64,000 nt of DNA from Artemia franciscana. Lineage: Eukaryota; Arthropoda; Branchiopoda; Anostraca; Artemiidae. Under the pieces are notes generated by a model. The model searched no databases. It saw nothing but the letters and a program-made list of their open reading frames with translations, and was not told where the DNA came from. Shown in pieces: positions 12,889-42,850 of this stretch (positions within the stretch are counted from its first letter, which is position 1; every line of letters starts with the position of its first letter). The stretch spans positions 1,853,854 to 1,917,853 of the forward strand of contig NC_088867.1 in NCBI RefSeq assembly GCF_032884065.1. Direction: 5' to 3'. A program made the translations under genes and the position numbers.

Positions 12889-13130
12889 TTATCCTTGTTT
12901 TTGTTTCTTTCGTAGATCTACACTGAGTCCTGGGGCTTGATAGTTTAGAGCAGGACGACCATTGGGGCCAACGTTTGAGAAAGCAACATTAGCTCCATTG
13001 TATCCAGAACCTGGTTGGTAGCCTAGAGGCCGATTAAGCCCATTGTTGAAGCCAGGACGATTGAAACCCGGACGGTTGAATCCTGGGCGATTGAAGCCAC
13101 CGTGGCCAGAGTTGAATCCGCTACCATGCC
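12889..13130 (-). CDS. Terminal exon of secreted Gly/Asn/Pro-rich protein gene
   Basis: On the minus strand this exon starts after CTTCCAG, in phase 1, and runs 80 codons to TAA at 12,891-12,889. It encodes a short HGSGFNSGHGG lead, three GFNRP repeats, a Gly/Tyr/Asn segment with LGYQPGSGYNG, and a C-terminus with VGPNGRPALNYQAPG and a basic end (RKKQKQG). An alternative acceptor 25 bases upstream (TTTCAG at 13,156-13,161) also keeps this frame open but needs phase 0, which does not match the other exons. Decayed relatives at 27,506-27,714 and 42,642-42,850 share the pattern GPxGRPALxYQAP, so this is a real gene segment. Gly-rich secreted proteins of arthropods include cuticle, adhesive and antimicrobial proteins; the sequence does not say which. 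There is no introduced stop or frameshift. Confidence 0.75.
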
Positions 13131-13400
13131 CTGGAAGTAGGGTGGATTGTTTATGCTGAAATGAGATATGGAATCATCACTAGGTCGGTGTTGTGTATCA
13201 AAAAAATAAAAAGAAGAAATGAAATAGTTGAAAAGGGAAACTTAATATAAAATTAAGACATAGACTATTTTAGTATGCGAGGAAGCATCAAAAATATCTG
13301 CATCCCTTATTGAAACTACAACTCACATGTTTAAAATCAGAAAAAAAGTGTTGATGTTATGGTTAGTAGTGTCAATAGACTGCATTGTCAATATTTGTCT
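13131..13400. other. Intron sequence upstream of the Gly-rich exon
   Basis: Just right of the exon on the plus strand is the minus-strand acceptor region with two AG choices (13,131 and 13,156). The rest is AT-rich and shows nothing further. Confidence 0.35.
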
Positions 13401-13547
13401 TTCTGATAAGATATAGCCAATTATGATTTCCTTTTACAAATGAACGATAAAACTTAAACTAACAATATGAGAATACCATCTCCCCCCTAATGTTACCGAA
13501 ACACAACATAATATTATTAATACTTGATGTCTTTTTACGTAGTCACT

Positions 13548-13551
<4 letters not shown>

Positions 13552-13586
<35 letters not shown>

Positions 13587-13609
13587 GAGAGGAAGAGAGA
13601 GAGAGAGAT
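13552..13609. repeat. (GA)n microsatellite, interrupted
   Basis: About 58 bases of GA repeats with two AGGAAG interruptions. It borders the LINE fragment to the right. Confidence 0.95.
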
Positions 13610-13658
13610 AGGTTTATTTAAACAACATTGTAGCTAACAGCTAATTTGCGTTGCTTCA

Positions 13659-13950
13659 CTATGCTAAATAACAAACTAACACACAAAAAAAAGAAGAAAA
13701 ATAACTGTGGCGAATAACAGCTTCAAAATCTTCTGTTTTGTTGCACAGCGATCTAGTGTTGCAAACGAGGAAGTTAGGAAGGCCACGACGAGCGTTAAAA
13801 GGAACAGGTCTTAGGATGGGAGGCGGCTCATTGGCATAGTCATTAATGGGAGGTTTAGAAGTAGCTCTACTGTGAACAGTGCTGACATCTAAAAAAAGGG
13901 ACGGTAGCGGCATCTGGTGGCTTCGTCAGAAGATTAAAAGTCACTAAGTT
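13659..13950 (-). pseudogene. LINE endonuclease N-terminal fragment
   Basis: The minus-strand frame contains RRGLPNFLVCNTRSLCNKTEDFEAV. The block N-x-R-S-L-x-N-K followed by an acidic residue is the usual first motif of the apurinic endonuclease domain in ORF2 of Jockey/CR1/I-type LINEs (the Asn binds the metal-active site). The frame stops at 13,659 after a hydrophobic, non-matching tail, so only the first roughly 60 residues survive. It may be the 5' part of the same LINE whose reverse transcriptase lies at 15,243-15,990. Confidence 0.55.
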
Positions 13951-14279
13951 CGAAAAAGTAGATGGCGACACCGTATACAGGGGTGAAAAAAGTCAAATAA
14001 AGTATCTTTCCTGTACTTAATTTGCATATTGATGGCACAGAAAACTGTCAGAATAGCCACTGCTTTAACTGGTGACGCCATTGACGAACCAGCACACATA
14101 TATTGGGCACTATTAAGCTAAACATGGTAGATGGGCTCTGCAGCTGTGCTAGTGCAATAGCGCCATCTACCAAAAAAGTATGCAAAGATCAAAATAACTA
14201 ACAATTTTTTTTTGCTATCAACGAGGGACTTAAAAATTGGAGCTTTTCTACATAAGTTTGTTGGGATTGCTCACTTGCT
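13951..14279. other. Unassigned sequence
   Basis: No gene or repeat is recognised between the LINE fragment and the degenerate array. Confidence 0.3.
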
Positions 14280-14970
14280 CTTCGTAAAATGTTATGCCCT
14301 GGTGGCAATTGTGGTTCTTATAGAAGCGATGCTCGCATAGAATACAGTAAGAGCTTATTTGATTGAAAACTAAAAGTTTAGTTCACTTTTCAGAGTCAAA
14401 AGAGATCGGAGGGCAACTAGCTCCCTCCTTCCGCACCCCCCACCCCCCAAAAAAAGGCATCAGAAAATATTTAGATAGCCATTTTATTAAAAATAGAGAT
14501 ATTTGTATAAACTTCAGGGAGGGCTCATTTGATTTGAAATGGAAAGTTTTAGTTCACTTTTTAAGAGTCAAAAGAAATCGGAGGGCAACTTTCCCCTAAT
14601 GCTCCTTTCCCCCAATCTCATCCAATAAAAATTTTGAGATAGATATTCTGTTAAAAATAATTCAAAGGTCAGATAATTAAAGCCCCGGTGTTGACGCACC
14701 TCCAGGGACCCGTGGTCAGGCGTTGTAAGTTATGCCCTGGGGGCAAGTATGGTTCTTATAGAAGTGCTGCTCGTATAAACTTTAGAGAGGGCTCATTTGA
14801 TTGGAAATTTAAAGTTTTAGTTCATTATTTCAGAGTCAAAAGAGATCGGAAGGCAACTAGCCCCCCACCCTTTTTTCCCCAAATACATCCGATAATCTCC
14901 CAGGGCCAGGGGACAGGCGTTGTAAGTTATGCCTGGGGAAATATAAGGTGCTTATAGAAGGGAATCTTGT

Positions 14971-15048
14971 ATAATAATAATAATAATAATAACAATAATA
15001 ATAATAATAATCGTAATAATAATAATAATTATAATAATAATAATAATC
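14971..15048. repeat. (ATA)n microsatellite, likely 3' tail of a minus-strand LINE
   Basis: Imperfect ATA/ATT trinucleotides. It lies directly at the 3' end of the minus-strand LINE fragment that follows. Trinucleotide (TAA-type) 3' tails are known for I-like LINEs, so it is probably the retrotransposition tail. Confidence 0.75.
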
Positions 15049-15990
15049 TATTTATAACCCACTGCACAAAACAATGTGAGGATAGTGGAGTAAAAAGAGA
15101 GAAAACAAAATAAACACTAGAATAGAAAACAACACCAGAAAAGAAAAAAACATATCAATTTTGTACAACAAAATCAACAGAACATACGGATGAGAACTAA
15201 GGTACAGCACAATAAGTACAACAAAATCAACAAGGAATAAGGTCAATAGAACAAACGGATGAGCTCATAATATGGGGTAAGCCGTCGATATGCTTGTGCC
15301 GATAACATATCATGAAGCTCCTGTAGTTCTGCAGTTATATCGGGAGCTTTGTATATTCGGATTATTTTCCGAATTCGATATGATAGAGGTAGATAAAGCA
15401 GGTATTTACAGTATTTATAGTGACATCTACGTTGTTTACATAAGTCGCTCTTTTTCAGTAGAATGAAGCTCCCAGAAAGATAAAGTACAGAGTGATCACA
15501 AAAAACTAGATAAAAAGGAAACAGAGCCTTTGGATTATACTTAAACCGGTTTGACTCAATCTTAGAGTATCCAAATCTGACTTTTTTTTTACAAGTTTTA
15601 GATATTGCAGTCTGACGGAAGAACAAAATATTTTTACATATTGTTAAACCAGGCCACCGAAAATTTTCCACAGAGGGAATGGATGTATTTTTAATTTGAA
15701 GAGGAGTATTCGGCAAGGTACCGTTAGAACAAATATACTCGCATTTTTCAAGATTCAGATTTAGTCCAATATCAAGGAAACCTTTTTAACCCTTTGAACT
15801 GTGCGGGACAGGAAGATTTGCATCTACTGATAAGGAGAAATGTCATCTGCGTAATCAATATATGACACGTCAGTAAACCCCGTAAAATACGTCCGAGAGA
15901 TCTTGGCAGTTATCACAGCCATATACATCTTAAAAATATAAGGTGACAACACTCCGCCTTGACATACACCACCATGGACTGAGGGTTCAT
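15049..15990 (-). pseudogene. LINE reverse transcriptase C-terminal part and 3' end (5'-truncated)
   Basis: Read on the minus strand from about 15,990: HGGVCQGGVLSPYIFK (motif B, QGGxLSP), then SYIDYADDIS (catalytic YADD), after which the frame breaks near 15,830 (stop after ISPYQ) and around 15,780. It continues in the 157-residue frame 15,716-15,243 with FRWPGLTIC, the usual FKYLG-like motif after the thumb, and the C-terminal LYLPLSYRIRKII. The reverse transcriptase of this element copies its RNA at a nicked target. The copy lacks the endonuclease and is disrupted. The fragment at 2,172-2,366 is from the same family. The trinucleotide tail suggests an I-like clade. Confidence 0.75.
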
Positions 15991-17529
15991 TTGATTGAAA
16001 ATTGAAAGCTGTAGCTCACTTTTCAAGAGTCAAAAGAGATCAAAGGGCAATTAGCTCCTCCATACGCTTTTTCTCCAAACCCATCCGACCAAAATTTTGA
16101 GATAGCCATTTTGTTAAAAATAGTTCAAACATCAGATAATAAAAACTTCAAGGTTCACACAAACCCCCCAGAGTCCGTGGCAAGTGTTTTAATTTATGTC
16201 CTGGGGGCATATAAGGTTTTTATGTAGGAAGAGGTCTTATAAACTTCAGAAGTGGCTCATTTGATTGGAAATTGAAAGTTCTAATTACCTCTTTAATACC
16301 CCACATACCTGCAGGGGGACTGAATTGTCCCATCTCCACTCTGCTCCCTATTAGAGTCAGTGCTCTGGCTCTGCCTAAGTAAATAACCTTTTGCCTTCAA
16401 TATGTTATTTTATTTTTACTTCGGTCACTTAGTATTGAAGAGACGGTTTCTAGATACTTGAGAGGGAGCTCATTCCAATAAACATAAAAAGCATCAGATA
16501 AAAATTATGAGATAACAGTTTTGTTAAAAATACTTCAAAGGTCAGATTACAAAAACTCCGTTGTAAAAAAAACCCAGGGCCCGGGGGTAGACGTTGTAAG
16601 TTATGCCCTGGGGGTATATAAGGTTCTAGTGGGAGGGATGCTCGTATAAACTTCAGAAACGGCTCATTTGATTGGAAACTGAAAGCTCCAGTTCACTTTT
16701 TCAGAGTCAAAAGAGGTCGAAGGGCAACAACCCCCCCCCCCCTCCACACCCCTTTACCCCAAATACATCTGATAAAAAACTTTGAGATGGGCATTGTGTA
16801 AACAATGGCTCAAACATCAGATATTATAACTTTGGAGTCCCACACAACCCCCAAGGATCCGGGGACAAGCGTTGTAAGTTATGCCCTTGGGGCATATGAC
16901 TCTTATAGAAAGGATGCTCGTATTAACTTTAAAGAGGGCTCATTTGATTGAAGTTCTTGTTCACTTTCAGAGAGTCGAAAGAGATCGAAGGGTAATTAGT
17001 ACCCCCCCCCCCCCACGCCCATTTTCCCCAAACCTCTCCGATAAAAATTTTGAGATAGCCATTTTGTTAAAAATAGTTCAAAAATCAGATAATAAAACCC
17101 TGAGGTTGACACAAACCCCCAGAACCCGGGAGCAAGTATTTAAAGTTATGTCTCGAGGGCATATAAGGTTTTTATAGAAGGAGAGGTCGTATAAGCCTAT
17201 ATACCTGTAGGCTGGGACTGGAATGTCCAAGCTCTTCTCTGCTCCCTATCACAGGCATAGCTCTTGCTCTGCCTAAGTAATTACCATTATGCCTTAAATA
17301 TGTTACTTTATTTTTTCCCCAGCCACTCAGTATAGAAGAGATAATCCTAGATACTTGAGAGTGAGCTCATTCAATCGGAGATTTAAAGCTCTGGTGCTCT
17401 TTCATAGGCTTGGAGTATAGTTGCTTTGATACTAGTTTTGCTGCTTTGATGAACGATTGATGTTGAAAAAAAAGTTTAATTTTGAAATTAGGAATTTTCA
17501 AAAACTTGAAACTTTTTGCAATCAAAGAT

Positions 17530-18660
17530 TAATTCAAGTAAAGCTTAAAACGAACAAAAATATTTTTCTATTGAAGTACAAATGAAATAAAAAACGAACA
17601 GAAATTAAATAAATGATCAATGCAAACAAACAAACAATAGATACTAATATAAGTCAATAAATAGATTTTAAAATGTGCAAAACTTAAATTGAATATGCAA
17701 ATCAAGTGTGAAACGAACAAAAATTACTATAAACAAGAGTTTTTGTATTGCTTCCTTCTCTCACCGTAAAAGTCTAAAACCGATTGCATCGCTGGCGCTT
17801 TACTGAAAGATATATGTGTCTGGAACAGTCTTGGAAAGTATAAAAATTTCAAATTGAGGATTTGATACATAATGATAGTAATTTTGAAAGATCCGTCAGT
17901 TCAAGAGTTTATTTGTCACTGTAATTTTATTTTCATTTTCAGTGCTATAAGAACTGGAAAAGAAAATATTTGTAATTTAATACATTTTCAGCGAAGCGCC
18001 AATGACGCAGTAGGCTTTAGGTTTATACAGTTAAGGAAGGGGGTAGTATCCAAACTCTTGTTTGTAGTGAAACTGTATTCGTCTTGAACGTTTTAGAAAG
18101 AACTAATAGATTAAACTGAATATTTAATGTATAATGATATTAATTCCTGGAAGCTCATCAGTTCAAAATTCTACTGTAATTTTAATGTTAATTTTCAATA
18201 TTAAGTACAAAAAAATTGTAATATAATTGGTTTTCATTAAAGCGCCAGTGACGTAGTAGGCTTAATATGTGTACAGTGAGAGAAGGAGGCGATAGCCAAA
18301 CTCATTGTTTGTAGTAACTTTTGTTCGTTTCAAGCTTGATTTGCATATTCAATTCAAGTTTCACTATTTTTAAGATTCATTTATATTAGTATCTATTGCA
18401 TGTTGGTTTGCACTGATTGCTTATTTGATTTCTTTCCGTTTTGGGTTTACTTTATACTTCAATAGCAAAATAATTTTTTTCATTTTAAGTTTAATTTGCA
18501 ATCCAATTTAAGTATTGCTCGCTTTAAGATTTATTCATTGATTTATATTATTACTTGTTGTACATTTTTTGCTATGATTTTTTATTTAATTCCCGTTCGT
18601 TTTGGGTTTTATTTATTCTTTCATAGTAATTTCTGGTTGTTTTGAGTTTGAATTTTAACA
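17530..18660. repeat. Foldback element with duplicated core
   Basis: Left arm words at 17,540-17,800 (CTTAAAACGAACAAAAAT; ATTGAATATGCAAATCAAG; GCGCTTTACTGAAA) recur as reverse complements at 18,310-18,500 (CTTGATTTGCATATTCAATT) and in the core (TTAAAGCGCCAGTGACG). Between the arms a core of about 240 bases is present twice as direct copies, at roughly 17,830-18,080 and 18,090-18,325, each with AAGCGCCA, a GTAGGCTTTA/GTAGGCTTAA box and CCAAACTC-TTGTTTGTAGT. The flanking CGAACAGAAATT words link it to the dispersed-element family. Confidence 0.65.
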
Positions 18661-20204
18661 GATATTTGTACCTGCTGATCGTAAGTTTAAAATGGCCTTT
18701 ACTTTTCTGTGAAAAAATTCTTCTTCGGAAAATTTTTTTTTAATTAATAAAGAAAAAAAGAAAAATTTCTAGCAAACAGAATTAAAATGTTAGGCCTATC
18801 TTGCTTTATTTAGGATCTTATGGGCTAAACCTAGATGGCACTGGAAATTACGTTTTCTTGGGGAGGAACTTGAGCGTCCAATCAAAATATAAATGGGGAT
18901 CAACTAAAGCAACGTAAAAACAAGAAATTGTAGTAGCCATTGTTAATAATATGATTCTGAATCTCAATACAGAACTTAACATTGAAAATTGTACAGTTTT
19001 AGAGAAAACAAAAATTGTATCCTTGAATAATAAGTTTATGGTTTGCGGTGTGATAAAATACCAAAAGTACTTTTAAAAGCAGTAAAACACTAGATATTCA
19101 AGACCTATTAAACTATAGGATACCTAAGTGCTTATTAAATGCTTTGGAAGAAACACAGTCACTGCATAAGCAGAAAATTCAGTAGTAATTTGAAGAAATT
19201 ATTGAGGAAACAGGAACAACTAAATACAATGAAAAAATTAGTTATAAATTTTATAACTGGTGGATTCGTATTTTCATCAGGTGAGAAGGCAATCTCTTAG
19301 GTAAAATGGCCTTTGCCGATAAAAGCACTAACTATGGAAAAATAGATTGGACTTCAAAAGCCTTTCTGTCTTGAATTGAAAAGTAGCAGTATCCTCAGAG
19401 GACCATAATGTCACTATTCTTAAGCCTTGTTGACCTGGTGATCTTCAGATATTTACTAAAGGTGAGACAAGAAGGGAACGGGTGATTCTGAGGGGTTTAA
19501 ATTTCAATATCCGGGTGTGTCTAAAAATGAAATTGCGTAGTATTTTGAACGAAGGAAGTGATGAGCCTTTTTATTCGTTGAAAGGCTGGGATTGATTTTT
19601 GAAAAATAAGAAGAGATGTAATTTAATTGTTTCGTTTTTATGATTTATTTAGTTGCAGTTATATAGGAGGATTCTATTTATAATTTAGTGTCAGAGATAA
19701 TATGATTTGTGTGTCTGCATTTTCTGTATACACTTTTTAAATTTATTTTGAAAAAAAATGTCAGTTTACAATCACCATAACCAAAATTCCCTGCATACCA
19801 GGCTGGCGTCTGAATATTCCTATCCAGAAGTCTAAGGATTTCAACTAAAAAATAGTTGGGAGGGAGGATTGTTTTCTAAAAAGAGGTTCTTATCAAAATC
19901 GAGAGAAGGGGTAATTTTGTTTTGATCATTTTTTACCGCATTAAATACCAAAAACAGTTGTTTTCAAAATGTGTGTAGGGGGGGGGGTCAATGAGATATA
20001 GGGTCAATTGCCCCCTCTCATTGAATTGACACTCCGGAAAGTAGCAAGGTATCTTAAAAAATGACCTATCTAACATTTGTCGGTATAAAAAATTCTTTTC
20101 AAATTAATGAGTAGGTTACATTTTAAATTTTTAGATGAAAATAGACCTTATGTACTTAATTTTGCTTAACTGTAAAATAAGCCTTAAACTGCGAGAAAAC
20201 TTAC
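18661..20204. other. Unassigned sequence, probable intron
   Basis: No repeat shared with other parts of the window was recognised. It lies inside the proposed 12-kb gene, between the exon at 20,205 and the terminal exon at 13,130. A G-run occurs at about 19,977-19,988. Confidence 0.35.
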
Positions 20205-20273
20205 CAGGTCTTTTGGAAGTAGATGTGTGTGTCAAAGTGGTTGAAGTTGTTGTAACTGGTCGTTTAAATAAAC
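20205..20273 (-). CDS. Thr/Ser-rich internal exon of the secreted proprotein gene
   Basis: Minus strand: acceptor CTTTGTTTCAG ending at 20,274, 69-base exon, donor CTG|GTAAGTTTT at 20,204. Phase 1 at both ends. Encoded: LFKRPVTTTSTTLTHTSTS then KRP. Eleven of 22 residues are Thr or Ser, which suggests an O-glycosylated linker, and two Lys-Arg-Pro sites flank it. The preceding exon ends in G and this starts GT, restoring a Gly codon; its own final G joins GG of the Gly-rich exon, again Gly. Both strands have chance open frames here, but only the splice-bounded reading fits the gene family. Lys-Arg followed by Pro is normally a poor proprotein-convertase site, so the linker may stay attached. 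Confidence 0.65.
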
Positions 20274-21530
20274 CTGAAACAAAGGTGATTTTTTTAGCAC
20301 AGTTTTTGCCCCTGGAATTATTAGCTGGCTTAGGTGTTTCCAAAGGACTGGCTCTCAAATATGTACTTCTGATTTTTTTAAACTAGGTCTGATAGGTAGG
20401 ATATTAGGACCAATAGAACTTTTTGAATTCAAATCCTATTTATAAGAAAAATGAACTCATAAAATCGGTAATACCTCGAAACCTGTTTTTTTCGTCGTAA
20501 TACCAAAATATACGAAGAAGAAAAAACACCAGTAAAGTAAAAATCTATACAGCTGGTACAATGTCAATTTCAAACAGGTTAGAAAAACTATATTGCATGA
20601 TCTTATTCATATTTTAGAATCCTAGCCTTTAACAACATTGGAAACGAAAGTCTGTTCAAATCCTGTATGTTATGAAAAAACCTGCTGTCGTTTCAGAACA
20701 AGTGCTGCCACTTGACGAGGGAGTCTTGGCGTAAAGAAATGATAAAAGGGGGGCGGGGGCTATTTCTATCGATAGGTTAATTCGTCAGGGATATAATACA
20801 TAAATTCTGACATGGTCAAACAGCTTCTAAGCGTAAAGACCGATGCAACCCCAGATAGGGATTTACATACAGAATTGTATATAGCAACCCCTATATACAA
20901 TTGTTAAGGTCCTCAACTCTCTTTCCCATCGAGAAAGACTTCTGGGACATCGGATTAAAGTGCCATAAAGGACAATAATTTTATAAGAAGGTATGGTAAT
21001 GGTTTTACAGATAGGAAAGAGGTGTTGATAGACAATTTCGTACCCGGAAAGAACTTTCAAATAATGAAGTTCCAAATTTCTGCTCCTTACGTAGCATTGA
21101 CTTGTTTTTCGACCAGAAACTAGAAATTAAATGAGCCCAGAGTATTTTTATTTCATTAGCACCTTGAGACGCTTGTGAGATGGGTACTATGATTTAAGAA
21201 GGAAAATCTTTAAACAAAAGACAAGTCCATATTAGCAGATATATCTGCTGTATTAGCTTCCTCAAAGCAATATCAAGTTTATCCCCTTCAAAGTATAACT
21301 GTAAAGTATTCTTTGAAGATTTGAAACACAAAAAAAAGTTCTTAAGCCAAAGTTTTTTACACTTTCAGGGGCTCGAAATACGAAGGGGGCTAATCAGGTT
21401 TTTCAGAGGGTTTAGACCGGTCACTGATCAGCTAGTGAATGGTAAGTGCAAGCCTTATAAAAAAATGGCTACTACAGAATTTTCATTATTGAGAGTTGAA
21501 ATAAGAAGCAATTGCATTCTTGGGGCATAT
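20274..21530. other. Unassigned sequence left of the tandem duplication
   Basis: No gene is recognised. Around 20,868-20,900 a short inverted repeat (ACAGAATTGTATATAGC and CTATATACAATTG) is visible. The tandem units begin at about 21,530-21,554. Confidence 0.35.
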
Positions 21531-22302
21531 TTTTCAATTGTTTTTGGACTTCATATAGACTGTTGTCAGATAAAGTTAATCCCTGTTCATCCCCATCCCC
21601 TATGTGGAGGTTAAAATTGTATGCTGCTTGTGTATTAATACCGTTGATCAGTCATTCGAAGGGCTGAAAAACTTTTAGTTAGATCTTTTTGATTAGTTTT
21701 TACCCACAAAGTTTGATTTTGCAAGATTCAAGAATAACCGACCATCATATGTTTACTCCACCTACCCTTGAATTAGTCCTCTATCACTTTGATATCCAAA
21801 GTGTTTTTCCTCTTTTCTCTTCCCAATCCAACATACCATCATTACTATCCAAATCTTATAGAAAATCAGTCAAAGTGACCGTTCCGATAAGGAACTAATT
21901 CACCGATATACTAGACCTTAAGTCTATAAGCTAAGAACTCGGCATACTTAGTTCTTTATGCTACCGCATACTTAGTTCTTTAGTTCCTTAAGAAGTTCTT
22001 AACGACCAGAATAAATGGGATCCAGACTATTCACTCAGTATTATACAGGGATTCAATGAGGCTGTTATTATTGGCCCTTAAAGGTTTTTTTATTATTACT
22101 ATTATTAAAGGTCCTTCCTTTTTTTCTATAGCTAAGTATGACTCTTTTTATGACAAATAGCCCTTGCATACTTTTTGCACGCTGGACCTACGTAAATTCG
22201 GGGGGATTTAGTTTGTATTACTAAATTATTTACGAGCGGTATTTTGTTCTCTAACAGCAGGGGTAGCTTACTTGGTTCATTTCAATTTCACCTAGGGATC
22301 CT

Positions 22303-22671
22303 TTGCTTACCCTTTGCTATCAGAAGCGCACACGCCGCAAGAATAATTCTGATATCCACTTTCCTGTCCGTGGAGAAAGTCAGCCATTTTTGCCGAGAGA
22401 AGAAGTTAGCAGAACAGATTACCCATTGATATTTAAAAATCTTATTTTCTGTAACTATAGCAATGCGATCAAAAAGGACTCATTTTCATGGCAGTGCCCT
22501 AGTTGTATATGTTTAAAAAATAAATTTGAGCTAGTAATAACTAAGTACCAATCTGACAGACATATATTTCATCTAAGCTTTCTAAATTTGGGACAGTATA
22601 CGACACTGTATATCATAGACTGTGCAATAGCGCTGAAACGACTAGTGCCCTTTTTTGGTACTTGTAAGTGA
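22303..22671 (+). other. Triplicated open frame of doubtful coding status
   Basis: A 122-codon frame with REEVSRTDYP and SWQCPSCICLKNKF is also open at 35,609-36,208 and 49,127-49,711. By eye, the differences between units 1 and 2 are almost all amino-acid changing (about a dozen) with about one silent, so no purifying selection is visible. I treat it as repeat-derived or chance, made visible three times by the segmental duplication. Confidence 0.25.
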
Positions 22672-24020: not shown

Positions 24021-25173
24021 GTGTCCTTTTAAGAGTCAAACTGATTTGAGAGAACCCCCTCCCCCACTACACCCATCATTTTCCCTAACAAACATCCAAA
24101 AAAGTTTTGAGACATTAAATTGTTCAATATTGTCGAAAAGCTCAGTAATTACATTTTGGGGGATGCCAGCCCCCCCCCCCCCCCGAAGCCTCAGGGCAAG
24201 GGCAGAAAGTTATGCATTTGTTCATTGTTTACATATAGTATATGTTACTGAGAAAAGTTCTGCATGTTTGACTTCTACTTTTCCAAATTACAAAGGGCAT
24301 TCAGATCAGTCTTCCAGTGAAGGTTGAAGGGGATGTGTTAAACTAGGTCATAACATGTTATGTGTATATAGATTGTCAAAAGGGTGTCCTTCAGGAATGA
24401 CTGAGTATATTAATTTTGAATTTTCAGGAAATAATAAGGGAGATAATCAATTGAACAAAAATGCAATATTTGCACACTACTACTACTGCTACTACTGTTG
24501 CTTCAACTGCTACCAAAAGTACTGTTACTGCTACCACTACTATCACTAGAACTTGTACTTCTGTAGTGAGTACTATTAAGGCTAAGGATATTGAGGAAAC
24601 GTTGAGGGGAAATTTGAATTAAATCGAAACATACTATGGGTATACAGATTACTGATACGGTCGTATCAGCAATATTTTTGGAACGGCTTATCATACCAAG
24701 AGCAAAAAGGTAATATATGCATGCCAATACTAACACCTATACCACTGCTACTTTTTCTTATGCTACTACTGCTACTAAACTACTCCAACTGCTACTTCAA
24801 TTGCAACAGCTTGTAAATTTTAGAGTGTTAAGTTGAAAAGGGTGTCAAAAGCTTATATGAACAATATTTTTGGAACAGCTGAACGTGTCAAGGTAAAACT
24901 TCCGCATTATAAACCTATTATAAACCTATTATACCTATTTATTAACCTATTAGAATTATAAAATTATTTCCACAAAAATTAATCACTCTCGTTTATTTTT
25001 TTTTGTTCATGTTATCATCGTTTACTTTCATGATTAGCTTTTGCTTTGATTATATATTTTTTTTGCAAACAAATATTAGTTGGTCTATTTAAAGTAGTTT
25101 AATATTCGATCTGTTGGTATTTTGTTGGTCTGTTCGCATTTCTTAACTTAAGTTTTAGGTAAAGAATAATTAC
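24021..25173. repeat. Dispersed repeat with ACT/GCT-rich (Thr/Ala) simple repeats
   Basis: Matches 40,745-42,074 of unit 2. Around 24,470-24,555 and 24,745-24,830 are ACT/GCT/ACC triplets; one frame from the ATG at about 24,460 reads a Thr/Ala/Ser-rich peptide ending KAKDIEETLRGNLN. Neighbouring frames are Tyr/Cys-rich or Ser/Gly-rich. Unit 2 has 158 extra bases at 41,422-41,580. The triplet bias comes from the repeat, so I do not call a gene. Confidence 0.6.
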
Positions 25174-25266
25174 CAAAAAATCTTTCTTTTGGCTCTTCCT
25201 TTTCAGCTGGATCTGGCTCAGGCTCTGCTTCAGCAAAAGCTTCGCGTTTCGTAAAAAAACCATCAT
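25174..25266 (-). CDS. Acidic propeptide exon with Lys-Arg site, unit 1
   Basis: Minus strand: a long T-tract then ACAG acceptor, 93-base exon, donor TTTTTTG|GTAATTATTC. Phase 1 at both ends; after the split codon it reads DGFFTKREAFAEAEPEPD and continues PAEKEEPKERFF. A dibasic Lys-Arg is followed by Glu-Ala and then alternating acidic/Ala/Pro residues, the look of a propeptide or a spacer between processed peptides. The closing ERFF recurs at the end of the plus-strand second exon (60,408-60,473, SERFFT), so the two spacer exons may be related by descent. If the donor were not used, the frame would stop eight codons later (after NYSLPKT). The frame given by the ATG reading (MLTETFF...) is a shadow. 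Confidence 0.7.
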
Positions 25267-25327
25267 CTGTAAAAAAAAAGTTTCCGTTAACAAAATTAAC
25301 TGGAAGTCATTTACGCCTGTAGAACAT

Positions 25328-27082
25328 TACATAAAAAAAACTAGGTTTTTTTAACTGAAAGTAAGGAGCGACATTAAAACTTAAAACGGACAGAAATTAC
25401 TCCGTATATGAAATGGATTGTTCCCTCCGCAATCCCTCGCTCTTTACGCTAAGGCTTTTAATTGTTTTAAAAAGCAGAATTGTGGCAAAGAGTCAAACTT
25501 TAGCGTAAAGAGCGAGGGACTGCGGAAGGAACAATCCATTTCATATACGGAGTAATTTCTGTTCGTTTTAAGTTTTAATGTCGCTCCTTACTTTCAGTTA
25601 AAAAAACCTAGTTTTTTTTATGTAATTTCTGAACGTTTTTGAATTAATGCATGTTTGATTTTGACTCTCCACACGTAAACTATTCAAACGAAATTTGCAT
25701 ATTAATTCCTTTTTTGGCTAAATGGCTTTCTCTTAGTTTTGATCATACGATTTTGAGAAATATGGGATGGGGAAGGAGGCCTAGTTGCCATGCAATTTTT
25801 CGGTTACATAAAAAGGCAACTATTAATTTTAATTTTAACGAATTTTTTTATTAGCAAAAAATATACGTAACTTTAGAATTAACTTACGTAACAAACTTTT
25901 ATATTCTTTAATTATTATTATGTATATGAGGGGGTTTGTACCCTCGTTAATACCTCGTTCTTTACACTAAATCGTAAGTTTTGTCCCAATTCTTTAAGAA
26001 TGACCCCTGAATCAGAAAGGCCGTAGAATAAATAGTTGAAATTACTAAAAATACTTTAGCATAAAGAGCGAGGTATTTATCTCCTCCTAAATACCTCGCT
26101 CTTTATGCTAAAGTATTTTTAGAACCCCTCATATGCGTAATAATCTCTGTTCGTTTTAAGTTTCAATGCTACTTCTTCCTTTCATTTGAAAAAACGTTTT
26201 CATGTTTATTTTTCATTGTTTTCTTATAGTAATGCTAGAGAATCCTGCGCCCTTTTCATTGAATTTTTCTTCCCCCATGACAGATTCCTCCAAGGAAAGA
26301 TCCTCCAACATAGCCCCCTCTCCTCATTCCCACCCCCAAACAAAATAAAATCCCCCTGAAAACGTCTGTACACTTCCCAATAACCATTACTATATGTAAA
26401 CACTGGTCAAAGTTTGTAACTTGCAGCCCCTCCCCCAGGGATTCTGGGGGAGTAAGTCATCCCCAAAGACATAGTTATTATGGTTTTCGACTATGTTGAA
26501 CAAAATGGCTATCTCAAAATTTTGATCCGTTGACTTTGGGAAAAAAATGAGCGTGGGAGGGGGCCTAGATGCCCTCCAATTTTTTTGGTCACTTAAAAAG
26601 GGCACTAGAACTTTTCATTTCCGTTAGAATGAGCCCTCTTGCGACATTCTAGGACCACTTGGTCGATACGATGACCCCTGGGAAAAAAAAACAAAAAAAA
26701 ACAAAAAAACAAACAAATAAACACGCACCCGTGATTTGTCTTCTGGCAAAAAAATACAAAATTCCACATTTTTGTAGATAGGAGCTTGAAACTTCTACAG
26801 TAGGGTTCTCTGATACGCTGAATCTGATGGTGTCATTTTCACTAAGATCCTACGACTTTTAGGGGGTGTTTCCTCCTATTTTCCTAAATAAGGCAAATTT
26901 TCTCAGGCTCGTAACTTTTGATGGGTAAGATTAAACTTGATGAAACTTATATATTTAAAATCAGCATTAAAATGCGATTCTTTTGATGTAGCTATTGATA
27001 TCAAAATTCAATTTTTTTGAGTTTTGGTTACTATTGAGCCGGGTCGCTCCTTACTACAGTTCGTTACCACGAACTGTTTGAT
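25328..27082 (+). mobile_element. Dispersed element, copy 2, full length, defined by an empty site
   Basis: Unit 2 reads GTAGAACAT directly into AAGGGTTTG at 42,229/42,230; unit 1 has 1,755 bases at that point, from TACATAAAAAAAACTAG to GAACTGTTTGAT. This fixes both ends. The head is the long inverted repeat (25,328-25,624), the tail the ACAGTTCGT hairpin. A 2-base AT target duplication is possible. No transposase frame is seen, so it must be moved in trans. Confidence 0.88.
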
Positions 27083-27505
27083 AAGGGTTTGTCTTCGTTA
27101 TACAGCTTTTTGGCAGCGTATCAAAAGAAACATGTAGTTAAAGTATGTGTTAGCGAATAATAATGTTAACTTTAGAGACGCTGCTAAAAATATATTTTAT
27201 ATATTTAAATAATAAAAAATAATCAGATAGACGGGTTTTAGTGTTCACATTATAATGATGGTAATTCGAATGGTGTCTTTAGCAGAAAGCATTAATTCTA
27301 ACAATTACATCACTTAGTAGGTTTTTTTTTTAGCAACTTTTCAAAAAGACGCTTGCACTTAACGTATGAATGAGCGTAAAGTAACGGAAAATAACGGAGC
27401 TACTAAAATGGTCTATTAGGGTAAAAAGGAACTTAAATAATGAACAAGGTGTTTTTGTCAAAAAAAACAAAAAACAAAAGCTTCGCGTTTGGTTTTCTTA
27501 TCCTT

Positions 27506-27714
27506 CTATCTAAGATTAATGCTCAGCTATGGTGCCTGATAGCTCAGGGCAGGTCTTCCCAAGGGACCGGTGTTTGTAAATGCAACATCAGCACAACCAA
27601 ACCCGGACCAGGGCTTGTAGCCGTGTGACTAGTAGCCAAAACCATTCCCATATGCACTGTCAAATCCTTAATTATATCCTTGGTTGTAAGCCACGCCTCC
27701 AAATCCTCCTTGAG
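27506..27714 (-). pseudogene. Decayed Gly-rich terminal exon, unit 1
   Basis: Minus strand after the acceptor CATTTTAG the phase-1 frame reads QGGFGGVAYNQGYN, stop, GFDSAYGNGFGY, stop, SHGYKPWSGFG and then TNTGPLGRPALSYQAP, stop, LSINLR, stop. It aligns with the intact exon at 12,889-13,130 (VGPNGRPALNYQAP, LSVDLR). All four stops are shared with unit 2, so decay preceded the duplication. Eleven bases past the last stop, AAACGCGAAGCTTTTG repeats 16 bases of the acidic exon, suggesting an old exon rearrangement. It should be skipped if the acidic exon is used by the neighbouring gene. Confidence 0.75.
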
Positions 27715-28099
27715 CTAAAATGGTTGAAATTGAAATTTCTAAATAAAATTAACTAAAATTTTTGCTTAAAACAAAAGTTTAAGTAAAAAATGTAAGGATG
27801 TATTAAATTTATATTCAAGTGGGTGTATGAACAATGAAACGGTTCTAATAAAACAGCAATTTCGGCAATAGTCGGGGTTAGTCTAGAAATATTGTAGACA
27901 GGAAATAAAAATTTGTACTATGTGCCCAATATTGACTTAAAGACTTTCTCTCTACAAATTTGGTATTGGGAATCCTAAAATACTTTTAAGTCGCAGCTGG
28001 GGACATAGATACCCTTTTAAATTTTCACTGACTCGCGGCAGCTATAGGGTGTCTTGTCAAGAATTAACTCAATCCTAATTTTCGTAAAAAAAAAGAAAG

Positions 28100-30095
28100 A
28101 AAAGAAAAACACATTTTTTCCACAGGAAGTAAGGAACAATATTGAAACTTAGAACAAACAGAAATGATTCAGTGTATAAGCTGTTGCCCTCTTCTCAATG
28201 CCTCGTTCTCAAGCTAAAAAATTTTCACTTTAAAAAAATACTCATTATTCTAATTAAAGAACCCTTTAGTTCCAGGAGTCGTTCTTAAAGAACTGAAACA
28301 AAATGATGAACTTTAGTGTAAAGAGTGATGTATTGAGATGGGGACAGCCTCTCTCATATACAGAATTATTTCTGTTCGTTTTAAGCTTCAATTTTGCTCC
28401 TTACTTACAGTAGAAAAACTTGTTTTTTTTACTTAATGGTTTATCAAATCATTTCTCAAATCGTTTCTCAAATAATGCCGAGAAATCCAGCTTCCTTCCA
28501 TGGATAATTCTATCCTCGATGAATTTCCTACAAGTAAATTTCGTGACGACAATTTCGCCTAATAAATTCTCCTTAGTATACTTTCATTTTAAAAAAGATT
28601 TCACTTTCTAATTTTTCTCAAATCATATCGGAAGTCTCCCTCCATATCTCCTCCGTATAATTCTCCCTTCTTTAAGCGGAATCCAAATATATAAGGTTCA
28701 TTAATTTATTTTATCCATCAAAGACTCTGAGCTTGAAAAAATTTCCCCATTTTTGAAAGAGGGGAGAAACGCTCCGTGAAAGACGAGGAATCTTAATGAA
28801 AATCATGCCGTCATAATTAGATAATCAGAAAACCCAATAATTAGATAATCAGAAAAAAATGTAAAATTTCACATTTTTGAAGATGGGAATCTTCAAAAAT
28901 GGGAAATTTTACATTTTTTCGAAAGAAAGATCACAAACCCGTGTACTAATTTATCTCTTTTTTTTCTCAGGAGCGATCGTATCAAACCAATGGTCCTAGG
29001 ATATCAAGAGTAGGCTCATTCGAACGAAACTTAAAAGTTTGAATTTCCTTTTTAAGTAACGAGAAAGATCGGAGGACAGCTATCCCCCTCCCGTGCCTCT
29101 TGTTCCCTAATTTGTTCGATCAATTGAGATAGTCATATCGTTCAACTTAATTGAAGAGTCAAATAACTAAGCTTTTGGAAATAACATAACCCCCACAACC
29201 CCTTCGGGAAAAGTCTTTAAGTTTTGAAATTTGCCAGTTGTTTACACATAGTATTTATTATTGGGAATTATAAGTAAATTTTACGGGTGGGGTAGGGTAA
29301 ATTTTCGGCGAAGGGGATTTTTCACTGGGAGAATTTCTATGGTGAGGTAGGTTATTGGAGGGGGAGGTTTTCGAGGGAAATTTAACACTTGGGGAATTTT
29401 TCTAGAATTGGTATATGAAATTTCTTTATCTGTCTTACTTTCTCTTTGCCAACTCGATTTTAAATGTGGAAGTTTTAATGGTAAATGTCCGGGGTAAATT
29501 TTCACCAAGATTGACTTTTGCAGATAATATATCCTCCCGATGCTCTAATATCACTTGTTCGAAACGATCACCCCTGGAAAAAAACAAATAGACAAATAAA
29601 AAACACGCCTCCGGGACCTTTCTCCTGGCAAATGTTCAATTTTTTTGTATATATGAGCTTGAATCCTCTACAGTAGGTTTGCTGAGATACCAAATCTGAT
29701 GTTGTGATTTTCATCAGGATCGTTTGACGTTTCTTAAGTGTCCCCCCTTTTTTGAAAAATTGGGCAAATTTTCTCAGGCCTGTAACTTTTGCCGAGTAGC
29801 ATTAAACTTAATGAATTTTATATAATTTGAATCAAATCAAGTTGAATTAAAATCAAGTTGCATTCAAGCTGTGGCTAACTGGAGAAAAAGCCAACACAGA
29901 TTGTCTGAGTGAGAGGCAAAGCTGGTATCAGCCTTTTTAAGGGTTGTATAAAAAATATTTTCATTTTCACTTGTTGATAATAAAAATTCAATTCTTTTGA
30001 TGTATCTATTGTTGTCAAAGCTCTGTTTTTTTTTTGAGTTTCAGTTATTATTGAGCCGTGTCGCTCCTTACTTACAGCTCGTTTACCACAAAATG
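28100..30095 (+). mobile_element. Older member of the dispersed-element family, unit 1
   Basis: Head box GGAAGTAAGGAACAATATTG at 28,125, a diverged foldback to about 28,430, and tail CGCTCCTTACTTACAGCTCG at 30,063 with the hairpin eroded (ACAGCTCG...AAAATGT). It is shared by unit 2 at 43,565-45,560 with only scattered differences, so it predates the duplication. It contains the hairpin at 28,854-28,919. Confidence 0.65.
28854..28919. repeat. Near-perfect 31-base-arm hairpin, unit 1
   Basis: Arms of 31 bases (centre GAAGAT-GGGA-ATCTTC) with one mismatch. The unit 2 copy at 44,320-44,385 is perfect. Confidence 0.85.
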
Positions 30096-30399
30096 TTTGA
30101 AAAACTTGTTGATTTGAGGAACTTTCATCCGATTTTTTAAGTTTTTTGTAATACAGGAACAGAAAAAAGGAATTTCAAGCAATGGATAAAACAAATATTT
30201 GTGTCAGGATAAGGGATGCCAGGATCACCTGCCAAACAAAATTCACATCTATGGGTCATACTATCGAATCAACGCACTTTAAGTTTGGCATTTTAGCCTA
30301 TTGTCAATGTAACAATTTAAAAACACAAAGAAAAACGGGAATACCAATTAGATATATAAGAAACCTTGAAATAAAAGGCTACTAAAAATGGCAACTTAC

Positions 30400-30426
30400 T
30401 GATCATCACAGGGTTTGGCTGACCAA
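30400..30426 (-). CDS. 27-base micro-exon, unit 1
   Basis: Minus strand: CTTATTTCAG acceptor, 27-base exon, GTAAGT donor, phase 1 at both ends. Encoded after the split codon: GQPNPVMI. Its acceptor, donor and flanking intron closely match those of the 66-base exon at 34,261-34,326, so it is a shortened, diverged duplicate of it (compare GQPNP with the ALPYP/AQPYP start). Being symmetric and a multiple of three it could be included or skipped without shifting the frame. An identical exon is in unit 2 at 45,858-45,884. Confidence 0.5.
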
Positions 30427-31282
30427 CTGAAATAAGAAAAAAACATTTATGTTTATTTTTTTTTTATCAAAAATTACAATATGTTAACACACGGAAAATG
30501 AAATTGCAGGTTGTAAGCAAAAATATTTTTACGGGGAGGACAATTAGAAATTAAAGAGAGAGACACAATTAAAAAGTGAAAGAAAGGACAGATACATGGA
30601 AAATACGAGGTATCTTAGATATTGGTAATAATTTAAGAGTAAACCCTGCGAACCAGCATTAGGGTTGTGGCGTTTTTTTCTTCTCTAATTATGTTGCTCC
30701 GAAACACTACTTCTTTCGCAACTGCCTTTTTTCTCATTATCAGTTGTCTGTAGCTTCAAAGTCTTAAAAAATACAAACTCAAAATTTTTCCTGGATATGC
30801 AAATCATGAAACTAGGCAGAGAAGTTTTTTGAAGTTTGTAAAATTCCAGTTATTTTCCAGAAAAAAAAACGCATTTTGCTTCATGTTACACGTGGTGTTT
30901 GGAATATTATAGTAAAGTTTTTTTTAGAATAATTTTATGTTGAACTCCTATAGAGCATTTAATTTTTAGTCTAAGAACTTGAGAATAAAATTTTGCGACT
31001 CCTCTAGATTTGATCGAAAGGATTCCGTAAAGTCCATCCAGACTGCCAAATTTGTGTTTTTTCAGGTTGTTTTATGAAATTTTGGATCTAATTTTTCTTC
31101 AATTAATAGAGTTAATGTCAAAAATACGCCTTTGAAGCTTAGCTTTTTAGAAATCAAATACCGAACACCGATAGGTCATACCGATACAATTTTTCTAAAA
31201 TTTTCAAATTTGATGTTCATTTTGTTTTGGAAGCTAAATGTTAAGAAAAAGAGCAAGATGACATGCACTCTGCTATATACAA
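30427..31282. other. Intron sequence, internally duplicated
   Basis: Matches 34,327-34,900 and parts of 33,400-34,200 (for example AAAACGCATT..GCTTCATGTT), showing that exon plus intron were duplicated inside the unit. No frame is supported. The plus-strand frame at 30,182-30,385, just left of this block, is intron. Confidence 0.5.
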
Positions 31283-31291
31283 TTACTAGCT

Positions 31292-31320
31292 GTTGGGGTG
31301 GCGCTTCGCGCCACCCCAAC
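31292..31320 (-). repeat. 13-base-stem hairpin at the 3' end of the Helentron-like element
   Basis: GTTGGGGTGGCGC and its exact reverse complement flank a TTC triplet. A second GC-rich hairpin (GGGGCGCTTCGCGCCCC) follows immediately at about 31,333-31,350. This GC content is striking in an AT-rich region. Confidence 0.85.
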
Positions 31321-31687
31321 ACCTAGTTGGTGGGGCGCTTCGCGCCCCCCCAAGCCCCCCCGCGCGCGTAAGTCGTTACGCGCCATATTAGTTACGCGCC
31401 ATTGTAGTTGTGTCCCTGTGTCCCACCTGTGAATATAGATAGATTTATATATGTGTTTCAAACTACGTAAAAATTGCGAATATACAACATTCTTGGCTTT
31501 CCCACTACTGGGAGCTTTTCGTTTCCAATTGCCAGCAATTGATCTGAAAATGTTTGACCAGAGTCATCGTTACACAGACAGACAATATATAGAAAATATA
31601 TATATAAAATATAAATATATATATATTTTCTTTTTAGTTTTTTTGTAGTTTTTACCTTTTTTAGTTTTTTTCTTCTTTTGTATTAAT

Positions 31688-31768
31688 GCTAAAGCCAAGG
31701 TTCAAACCTGGAGCCTCTCGGACCTAGAACCTGAAACATAACGCTTTACCAACTCAGCTACTTCGGCT
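31688..31768 (-). ncRNA. tRNA-derived sequence within the Helentron-like element
   Basis: Minus strand begins GCCGAAGTAGCTGAGTTGG (acceptor arm and box A) and contains GGTTTGAACC (box B / T arm) followed by a partly matching acceptor 3' strand. The stretch between the D arm and the T arm is too long and does not pair as an anticodon stem. It is therefore not a working tRNA but a tRNA-like relic that could still carry a polymerase III internal promoter. A 72-codon minus-strand frame (31,702-31,920) overlaps it without recognisable homology. Confidence 0.4.
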
Positions 31769-32639
31769 TGAATACATTCGTTTTGAGCAGCTTCCTCAGG
31801 TGTTGCCATTGTAGGTTCTTCAGTCATTTTAAAATTAGAAATTTCTCTTTCAACGGTCTTTTTATAATTAAAAATTTGTGTTTGAACGATATTCTTAAAT
31901 ACCTGTGTCCTGGTCGTCATTTATATTCCCTGTGTCCCGGTCGTCATTTGTGTCCCGGTATCCCAGTCTGTAATTTCTCTTTGAGTGTCCCGGTCTGTAA
32001 TTTCTCTTTGAGTGTTTTTTCTTTTTAGTATTTTTTAGTTTTTTAAATTTTTTCTTTTTTCAGTTTTCTTTTTCTTTTTTATTTTTCAGCGTGTCCTGGT
32101 CGTCATTTATATTCCCTGTGTCCCTGTCGTCATGTTTTTTACATTTTTTCAGTTTTCTTTTTCTTTTTTATTTTTCAGCTTCACTATGAAATACATATCG
32201 CCGAACCTTTGTTTTTTTTTAACTAAAATCTGGTAGGCATTGATGACCTTATCCAAGTCAAAATCCCAAACCCAATCATCATCGCTATCATTTTCAGTTT
32301 TGATATGTTTTTACTCTCGCTGTCCAGGTGGATCTTCATCTAACTGCGCGGTTTTTCCTTTTTTTCTTTTTAGTTTTTAATTGGTTTTTACCTTTTTTTT
32401 TAGCTTTTTTAATTTTTTTTCGTTTTTTCTTCTTACTTTTTTTTTTAGTTTTTATCTTTTTTATTTTTTTTTATTTTTATTCTTAATTTTATTAGTTTTC
32501 TTTTTCTCTTCTATTTTTCAGTTTTTTCCTTTTTTTTAAGTTTTTTTTTTTAGTTTTTAGTTTTTTTAGTTTTTTAGTTTTTTAGTTTTTTTAGTTTTTT
32601 AGCTTTTTTATTTTTTTTATTAGTTTTTAGTTTTTTTGT

Positions 32640-32700
32640 AGTTTTTGACGTCATGACGTCAACCTGATCCACAGATCCACAGACAGACAGACAATTTATT
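32640..32700 (-). promoter_or_regulatory. Double CRE-like palindrome in the Helentron-like element (first copy)
   Basis: GACGTCATGACGTCA is two overlapping TGACGTCA-type sites, the consensus bound by CREB/ATF factors, followed by repeats of GATCCACAG. The same block recurs at about 33,166-33,222, each time next to the AT-rich terminal sequence. Whether it is bound is inference. Confidence 0.4.
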
Positions 32701-33236
32701 TTTATATATATAGATAGATAGAAGATATATTCCCTGTGTCCCGGTCGTCATTTGTGTCCCGGTATCCCAGTCTGTAATTTCTCTTTGGGTGTCCCGGTCT
32801 GTAATTTCTCTTTGAGTGTTTTTTCTTTTTAGTATTTTTTAGTTTTGGTCCCGGTATCCCAGTCTGTAATTTCTCTTTGAGTGTCCCGGTCTGTAATTTC
32901 TCTTTGAGTGTTTTTTCTTTTTAGTATTTTTTAGTTTTTTACATTTTTTCTTTTTTCAGTTTTCTTTTTCTTTTTTTAGTTTTTATCTTTTTTATTTTTA
33001 TTTATTTTTATTCTTAATTTTATTAGTTTTCTTTTTCTCTTCTATTTTTCAGTTTTTTCCTTTTTTTTAAGTTTTTTTTTTTAGTTTTTAGTTTTTTTTA
33101 GTTTTTTAGTTTTTTTAGTTTTTTAGCTTTTTTATTTTTTTTATTAGTTTTTAGTTTTTTTGTAGTTTTTGACGTCATGACGTCAACCTGATCCACAGAT
33201 CCACAGATCCACAGACAACTTATTTTTATATATATA

Positions 33237-34260
33237 GATTAACCGCTCAGCTAGAAATACAATTTTACGCAATGAACTTTCTCACGCATGTACGTTAAAC
33301 ACAGTAAAGAGTATACAGTCTCAATTTAGGTAGAAACAAAAACAATGTAAATGTAGTTTGACGATGACTTTGTGTTTGGGAAATTCTCTAATTACGTGCT
33401 GGCCTTAAAAAAAATAACTTAAAATAACCAAAAGGAATATGCATTACAATAACCAAAAAACGCATTATGCTTCATGTTACACGAGGTGATTAAAATTTCA
33501 TAGTAAAGTTTTTTTTTTTAGAACAATTTTATGTTGAACTCCTATAGAGTATTAATTTTTAATCTGAGAACTTGAAAATAAAATTTTGCAACTCATCTAG
33601 ATTTGATCGAAAGAATTCCGGAAAGTTCATCCAGAATGTCAAATTTGTGTTTTTCCTGGTTATTTTATGAAATTCTTGATCTGATTCTTCTTGCATTTTA
33701 AATGAGTAGTAATGTCAAAAGTAGGCAAGATAACATGAAATTTCATAAATAGGAAATTACTTTATTCACATAGAAAATATTTTCCAAAGTTATCATGATG
33801 TATCGTATGTTTTTTTAAATGTAGCTTTCTTTTTAGACAAGGTGGATTTTTTCAATGCAGATAAAACAGATCGGGATTTTTTAAGAATAAGTGGCAATAT
33901 GGGTTTCTCAAAAATAAAATTTCTTCAGTTACTTTTCTAGTGTAAACTATTTATATTGCAAGTTGTTACATTTTGTGTAAGTAAAATACCCTAACTTCGA
34001 AGCTAAACTTTTCAGAAAAAAAATTTGAATACTGATAAAACTTCATATTTCATTTTGGGAAACCTAAGAAAGTCTCTGCATTTCTCATATTCATTTCTGA
34101 ACTAATACAGTAAATTCTGATATTGACACAGGAGTTCTGGTGGTTATTTATTTTTTCTGAAGATCCGATGTTGATATAAGATATGAATCCGTTCATGAAT
34201 ATCCGATATAAAATATATAAGAAAGCTCGAAATAAGTGGCTACTAAAAAAGGCAACTTAC
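33237..34260. other. Intron sequence of the secreted-protein gene, unit 1
   Basis: Matches 46,740-47,775 of unit 2. It contains partial internal copies of the 30,427-31,282 intron. No gene. Confidence 0.5.
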
Positions 34261-34326
34261 GTCTTGAGAACTCATTACTCAGTACCTTCTCATCAGAATC
34301 TGCAGCTTCAGGGTATGGCAGAGCAA
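34261..34326 (-). CDS. Signal-proximal propeptide exon, unit 1
   Basis: Minus strand: TTATTTCAG acceptor, 66-base exon, donor AC|GTAAGT, phase 1 at both ends. It encodes ALPYPEAADSDEKVL then SNEFSR after the split codon. The plus-strand exon at 60,408-60,473 has the same length, phase and start (AQPYPEAADSDE), where it directly follows a signal-peptide exon. This exon therefore encodes the first residues after signal cleavage and an acidic propeptide. The final Arg can form a basic site with what follows. No paired signal-peptide exon was found on this strand. Confidence 0.65.
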
Positions 34327-42074: not shown

Positions 42075-42167
42075 CAAAAAATCTTTCTTTTGGCTCTTCC
42101 TCTTCAGCTGGATCTGGCTCAGGCTCTGCTTCAGCAAAAGCTTCGCGTTTCGTAAAAAAACCATCAT
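42075..42167 (-). CDS. Acidic propeptide exon with Lys-Arg site, unit 2
   Basis: Same 93-base, phase-1 exon as 25,174-25,266, with intact acceptor and donor. The one coding difference I see changes Lys to Glu in PAEKEEPK (here PAEEEEPK), which keeps the acidic character. Downstream on the minus strand the next exon-like sequence is in unit 1, so it may belong to a partial gene copy or feed into the unit 1 exons. Confidence 0.6.
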
Positions 42168-42641: not shown

Positions 42642-42850
42642 CTATCTAAGATTAATGCTCAGCTATGGTGCCTGATAGCTCAGGGCAGGTCTTCCCAAGG
42701 GACCGGTGTTTGTAAATGCAACATCAGCACAACCAAACCCAGACCAGGGCTTGTAGCCGTGTGACTAGTAGCCAAAACCATTCCCATATGCACTGTCAAA
42801 TCCTTAATTATATCCTTGGTTGTAAGCCACGCCTCCAAATCCTCCTTGAG
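42642..42850 (-). pseudogene. Decayed Gly-rich terminal exon, unit 2
   Basis: Same length (209 bases) and same four in-frame stops as 27,506-27,714. It retains GPLGRPALSYQAP. The acceptor here is TATTTTAG. Confidence 0.75.

Follow-up and report, generated by a model that had tools for sequence, protein, structure and literature searches.

A rearranged, probably decaying or reduced member of a cluster of putatively secreted Gly-rich precursor genes in the brine shrimp Artemia franciscana

Do five short open stretches on the minus strand of a 64,000-nucleotide segment of the Artemia franciscana genome (C5:1853854-1917853, the whole of which is hereafter called the window) constitute a single gene for a secreted proprotein, and, if so, what kind of gene is it? 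The original prediction, made from the sequence alone, had described five exons with good splice sites, joined in phase 1 and ending in a stop codon. Their coordinates, AG/GT borders and frame could all be reproduced, with the joined chain remaining open in phase 1 down to the TAA at 12889 (Table 1). Taken by themselves, such splice-like borders are weak proof, because a simple rule identified 16 open phase-1 exon candidates in the 21.5 kb stretch, including the four internal exons of the prediction; eight first-order Markov controls yielded 1-8 such candidates each (mean 4). Although the sixteen candidates would fit chance open stretches in repeat-rich DNA, neighbouring genes conserve the order of the exons, their phase and the protein sequence, which renders this explanation exceedingly improbable. 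What places the exons beyond chance is the presence of homologous copies, in the same order, in those genes: for the acidic, linker and terminal exons, a chance origin is ruled out by homology, and the 27-base exon may still be fortuitous. On balance, we favour the view that the window carries a rearranged copy, probably in decay or reduced, from an A. franciscana cluster of genes for secreted Gly-rich precursors, which would be matured in the same way as ant and bee precursors.

The evidence for a family comes first of all from the terminal exon, which encodes the Gly-rich domain B. When the genome (1,270,528,402 bases in 6,468 contigs) was searched with this exon, at least 17 places were found, including the query itself, all of them, among the matches listed, on C5 between 1.537 and 2.085 Mb. 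The search scores the best candidates only, so that 17 is a lower bound. The 16 further relatives among these matches thus lie within 0.55 Mb of one chromosome, and a second query, with the member L016, returned the identical 17 places. The number of independent genes is smaller than 17, because several copies are nearly identical (L007 and L008, 97.6%; L015, L016 and L017, 99.7-99.8%; L013 and L014, 96.4% over 2.8 kb). Fifteen of the 17 places are open, and the two that contain stop codons are both inside the window. An alignment of 11 members revealed 12 invariant columns in the C-terminal core (consensus GYQPGSGxGGANVxFTNVGPNGRPALxYQAPGLSVxLRxK), to which the window copy conforms and in which it is 47-87% identical to the other ten. 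The Gly-rich repeats preceding the core vary from gene to gene (GFNRP, GFGQT, GGYGG or GGQGGYEQ). Across the 38 codons of the core, 4.5 nonsynonymous and 16.5 synonymous changes separate the window copy from L006 (one-sided binomial 1e-7 to 1e-6), as against 1 and 4 for L007 (0.017), 1 and 4 for L008 and 3 and 4 for L009, respectively; silent sites are at or near saturation in comparisons with the remaining members. These codon comparisons indicate that the core of domain B is under strong protein-level constraint.

A further member, L018 (C5:2083331-2086504), contains a long open frame (589 residues in the genome search), in which GGQGGYEQ/GGFGQ repeats are followed by the family core. At C5:1.76-2.02 Mb, members flanking the window are nearly identical and inverted (L013/L014, 96.4%; L015/L016, 99.7%), which points either to an extensive duplication in inverted orientation or to alternative haplotypes that were wrongly placed.

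The neighbouring genes provide the layout against which the window copy can be read. The ancestral order of the parts appears to have been a signal exon, an acidic pro-exon, Gly-rich domain A, Lys-Arg followed by X-Ala/X-Pro pairs, an Arg-Pro Ser/Thr linker and Gly-rich domain B, and every exon junction read in these genes is in phase 1, with splicing itself presumed from the borders. In gene G-C, on the minus strand, the signal, acidic, domain A, linker and domain B exons follow one another at 1841002, 1836894, 1824781, 1823223 and 1816553; in gene G-E, on the plus strand, the same five lie at 1909793, 1914242, 1923163, 1928940 and 1940869, and another terminal exon follows at 1949023 (all positions being the 5' ends of the matched stretches). 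Complete open reading is presumed for these two genes, because the sequence at hand is partial for both. In gene G-A, on the plus strand, the signal, acidic, domain A and two linker exons form one continuous open frame in phase 1, MKVLYITILATAIVAHPLSEAADSEEN...MDKREAIPEADPRFIRPVSTS..., read as far as the linkers. The signal exon of G-A was located at 1641929 by a local search and is missing from the genome-wide match list, which is therefore incomplete for signal exons. The linker exon of the window has two more genomic copies, 87% identical and situated, in neighbouring genes, between domain A and domain B, as well as related exons in G-A; the acidic exon has three more copies, one of which results from the window's own duplication. 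In all four signal exons examined, from a set that includes at least five more first exons like them, the spacing from TATA to TCAGT is 28-30 bases. Two-exon members also exist: in L010 and L011, the signal peptide, Gly repeats, core and stop read through. These genes bear out the prediction of a phase-1, multi-exon family of apparently secreted proproteins that combine acidic spacers and Lys-Arg sites with a Thr/Ser linker and a Gly/Asn/Pro-rich domain.

The chain itself fared less well as a single intact gene. Within the window, the segments at about 21.5-35.1 kb and 35.1-48.6 kb form a tandem duplication (blocks 85-97% identical, mostly 95-97%), which doubled the candidate first exon, the acidic exon, its shrunken 27-base duplicate and the domain-A exon; because the duplication covers them, the first three exons of the chain are present twice. 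The prediction overlooked this duplication along with the stop-bearing remains of the first Gly-rich domain at 27714 and 42850, the plus-strand gene beginning at 56077 and the cluster of related genes around the window. The five exons, as chained, do not make up one intact gene, the 27-base exon being an internally deleted duplicate of the first and the 93-base exon what is left of the end of a larger, broken exon, with an acceptor in a segment shared with a sibling intron. Domain A is split by approximately 430 bases and, among the places found, only the end of the L010 intron matches this segment outside the window, at 81-83% identity. The match extends to and past the L010 splice acceptor, and the 93-base exon, which is open in both units, starts immediately after the acceptor of the inserted segment and then covers the tail of the old spacer. 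In unit 1, the short repeat CGAAGCTTTTG is found on both sides of the split. A dispersed mobile element was considered as the source of the segment preceding the 93-base exon and rejected, as its sole outside matches, among the best candidates scored, are in one sibling intron. The window copy is, then, probably rearranged and either decaying or reduced: stop codons and the insertion have destroyed its domain A, and only domain B is still intact.

Table 1. Positions of family exons and related features in the window (numbered from its first nucleotide)
Feature	Position	Strand	Remarks
Terminal exon, Gly/Asn/Pro-rich domain B	12889..13130	-	GFNRP repeats, conserved C-terminal core (YQPGSGYNGANVAFSNVGPNGRPALNYQAPGLSVDLRKK), stop TAA; predicted exon 5, 13130-12889 (242 bases)
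Linker exon GLFKRPVTTTSTTLTHTSTSKRPG	20205..20273	-	copies in neighbouring genes; predicted exon 4, 20273-20205 (69 bases)
Third copy of candidate first exon	22311..22371	-	ACG instead of ATG
93-base exon, tail (KREAFAEAEPEPDPAEKEEPKERFF) of broken domain-A exon, unit 1	25174..25266	-	acceptor in segment shared with L010 intron; predicted exon 3, 25266-25174 (93 bases)
Repeat copy nested in split domain-A exon	25317..27085		unit 1 only; similar copies at 1305-3406 and 61316-63064
Remains of Gly-rich domain A, unit 1	27475..27714	-	four stop codons
27-base exon, unit 1	30400..30426	-	duplicate of acidic exon minus 39 bases (in frame); predicted exon 2, 30426-30400 (27 bases)
Acidic pro-exon VALPYPEAADSDEKVLSNEFSR, unit 1	34261..34326	-	predicted exon 1, 34326-34261 (66 bases)
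Candidate first exon MDSKVDIRIILAVCALLIAK/G, unit 1	35617..35677	-	signal-like, phase 1, before acidic exon
Broken domain-A exon tail, unit 2	42075..42167	-	
Segment splitting domain A, unit 2	42170..42600	-	matches L010 intron end up to splice acceptor, 81-83% identity
Remains of Gly-rich domain A, unit 2	42616..42850	-	identical four stop codons
27-base shrunken acidic exon, unit 2	45858..45884	-	
Acidic pro-exon, unit 2	47776..47841	-	
Candidate first exon MDSKVYIRIILAVCALLIAK/G, unit 2	49135..49195	-	before acidic exon
Signal-peptide exon of G-E, MKAVYVTLLATAI/G	56077..56116	+	TATATA at -52 and TCAGT at -23 relative to ATG
Acidic pro-exon of G-E, VAQPYPEAADSDENELSERFFT	60408..60473	+	remaining G-E exons right of window

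How the window copy would begin bears on whether it is still a gene at all. The standard signal exon of the family, with its TATA/initiator promoter, was not found on the minus strand of the window, at odds with the chain as an intact gene; a 54-base match (74%) at 59801-59752 covers just the sequence upstream of the standard signal exon, not the exon itself. A candidate first exon of another kind sits 1.3 kb ahead of the acidic exon in both units, and matches three places genome-wide, all within the window. If the gene were alive, it could start at this MDSKV... exon, skip the dead domain A by means of the sibling-shared acceptor and encode a one-peptide precursor with the 27-base exon optional. 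The joined frame, including the candidate first exon, indeed reads through to the stop whether or not the 27-base exon is included, the 93-base exon is open in both units and domain B looks constrained; yet neither TATA nor TCAGT lies within 120 bases of the candidate first exon, the ATG is missing from its third copy, no similar exon was found in the 200 kb of sequence examined, and the linker and acidic exons show no constraint, so that we regard a live gene as possible but rather unlikely. The chances appear evenly balanced for a plain pseudogene, the intact exons of which were just recently released from constraint: the same stops in both units, two nested insertions and the missing standard signal exon are set against acidic, linker and terminal exons that are free of frameshifts and have their splice borders unbroken. 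In addition, an assembly gap of 100 N (50121-50220), directly after a third, partial copy of the tandem unit, may hide the missing signal exon. Read as a rearranged member of the cluster, the window illustrates how genes built of small phase-1 exons could be duplicated, broken and made to exchange pieces.

What the encoded precursors would do is suggested by their spacers and charge. A dibasic site with an X-Ala/X-Pro spacer beside a Gly-rich domain is present in L014, L012 and the window remnant, the adjoining domain A of the latter being broken. The Lys-Arg is followed by six consecutive pairs in the window (both units), ten in L014 and four in L012, and Ala or Pro never stands first in any pair, even where the first residue is altered (FA, IP). 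The Gly content of the domains is 18-25%. The computed isoelectric point (pI) is 9.6 for L014 domain A with KTKR, 11.8 for the window linker with domain B, 10.5 for a composite of the G-C linker and G-E domain B, and 4.1 for the pro-region and spacer. A three-step maturation, by kexin-type cut, removal of the basic pair and dipeptidyl trimming, has been proposed for ant hymenoptaecins and apidaecins (PMC3415428). By analogy, a furin/kexin-type protease would cut after the Lys-Arg of the Artemia precursors and a dipeptidyl peptidase would remove the X-Ala/X-Pro pairs, with the acidic pieces balancing the charge of the Gly-rich peptides, which are basic, until these are released; the same has been proposed for the apidaecin and ant hymenoptaecin precursors. 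If processing occurs as the sequence suggests, the X-Ala/X-Pro precursor maturation described in ants and bees would also take place in a branchiopod. A bolder scenario, which we consider doubtful, is that brine shrimp evolved a crustacean multipeptide precursor of antimicrobial peptides, with dibasic cutting and dipeptidyl trimming of EA/EP, from their own unrelated Gly-rich domain, and that the window gene was rebuilt by recombination between siblings, losing one peptide and regaining a splice acceptor from the intron of another gene.

In layout, the family resembles the hymenoptaecin and apidaecin precursors. The hymenoptaecin precursors of the ant Camponotus floridanus likewise combine a signal and pro-sequence, Gly-rich domains, a dibasic RR/KR site and EAEP spacers (PMC3415428), but the ant mature peptides are encoded in a single exon, in contrast to the one exon per domain in Artemia. 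The likeness seen is one of layout. The proteins scanned matched no Pfam-A family at the cut-off, a result that comes with the presence of a hymenoptaecin model in Pfam unchecked. Apidaecins are short Pro-rich peptides, unlike the Artemia domains, which are Gly-rich, comprise 80-100 residues including a conserved core and contain no apidaecin-type mature peptide. The honeybee precursors share repeats with X-Ala/X-Pro pairs, dibasic cutting and several exons each encoding a peptide (PMC3415428). AfRgly1, a Gly-rich antimicrobial peptide of A. franciscana, matches in species, Gly content, basic character and signal peptide (PMC12387859). It was rejected as a member of the cluster, given that its mass-spectrometry peptide (PMC12387859) is encoded letter for letter on C18, outside the cluster.

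The prediction had recognized no named protein and supposed the family to be undescribed, and our searches agree. The predicted chain without the 27-base exon matched nothing in Pfam at E<=10, and in Pfam-A six paralogue reading frames and two joined chains produced only matches below the cut-off. The best was to the matrix protein family Lamprin, from the L011 open frame (E 0.00035, 20.9 bits versus 34); Pentapeptide_2 (0.012 and 0.0038), KRTAP, Glutenin_hmw, Sporozoite_P67 and ATG4_LIR also appeared, and we read these matches as reflecting Gly/Gln-rich composition. Neither the terminal exon nor the domain-A remnant (two proteins) matched NCBIfam; in PDB, the best E values were 0.077 for the chain (a superoxide-dismutase-like protein) and 0.72 for the family profile, none significant; a phage search gave no match, and none of 11 pattern stretches was confirmed in IMG/VR. 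AlphaFold2, run on the terminal exon alone, returned no usable fold (mean predicted local distance difference test score, 53.7; predicted template modelling score, 0.13). Six family motif strings were absent from the 5.39 million papers searched, and nothing recognized as describing the family appeared among the papers listed for Artemia with Gly-rich proteins, gene clusters or hymenoptaecin. The family is real and apparently undescribed: a clustered, constrained and apparently secreted family with no Pfam match above the cut-off, in an animal widely used in aquaculture and stress biology.

The prediction had left the function open between antimicrobial and structural, and both remain candidates. 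A structural role, which we judge a serious contender although somewhat short of an even chance, would make the cluster one of extracellular matrix, cyst-shell, cuticle or mucus-type proteins, with the variable repeats supplying the material and the core driving assembly; the diversity of repeat types beside a conserved C-terminal core, the great variation in length and charge among members and the Lamprin match would all suit it. The SGEG2 cyst-shell precursor of Artemia is also secreted and thought to be cut at a kexin-type RYKR site into two peptides; it is likened here by description only, and an EAEP spacer goes unmentioned in the part of its description available (PMC3108945). Conversely, the two-domain genes would yield basic peptides, which fits defence, and for these genes a defence role appears slightly more likely than a matrix role. 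To our knowledge, a dibasic site with X-Ala/X-Pro pairs does not occur in matrix proteins. The combination is a feature of antimicrobial peptide and yeast pheromone precursors (PMC3415428).

Several observations weigh against placing the window copy in a cluster of ant- and bee-like precursors. The Lys-Arg/X-Ala/X-Pro spacer is lacking in L010 and L011, being present only in L012, L014 and the window remnant. The domain-A exons of L014 and L012 might end at their own in-frame stops (FFGNYSLPKN and DPSEQHS, respectively, each followed by a stop codon) rather than be spliced to a linker. L018, taken as a frame of some 550 residues, is acidic (pI 4.1) and L016 nearly neutral and Gly/Tyr-rich (pI 8.0), both fitting a matrix role better, and the best of the Pfam matches, albeit below the cut-off, is to a matrix protein. 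Finally, the linker and acidic exons of the window differ from their counterparts by 8.5 nonsynonymous to 1.5 synonymous and 9.5 to 2.5 changes, respectively, with no sign of constraint.

The window also contains other elements. In unit 1, ARAGORN identified a tRNA-like gene (31687-31758, minus strand; Rfam tRNA, 35.6 bits at 31687-31767) whose anticodon, CTA, would decode TAG, a stop codon. It is situated after the acidic exon and before domain A, in sequence absent from unit 2, and is probably a tRNA-derived pseudogene. Remains of an integrase-bearing element and of a reverse transcriptase resembling that of long interspersed nuclear elements lie at 7359-8589 and 37600-40649 on the plus strand, and a minisatellite at 53148-53747, in which a 25-base unit is repeated about 24 times, is open in several frames of both strands. 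Genome-wide, the COX1 family gave 75 matches, many on large contigs and reading through TGA, and these point to extensive nuclear copies of mitochondrial DNA.

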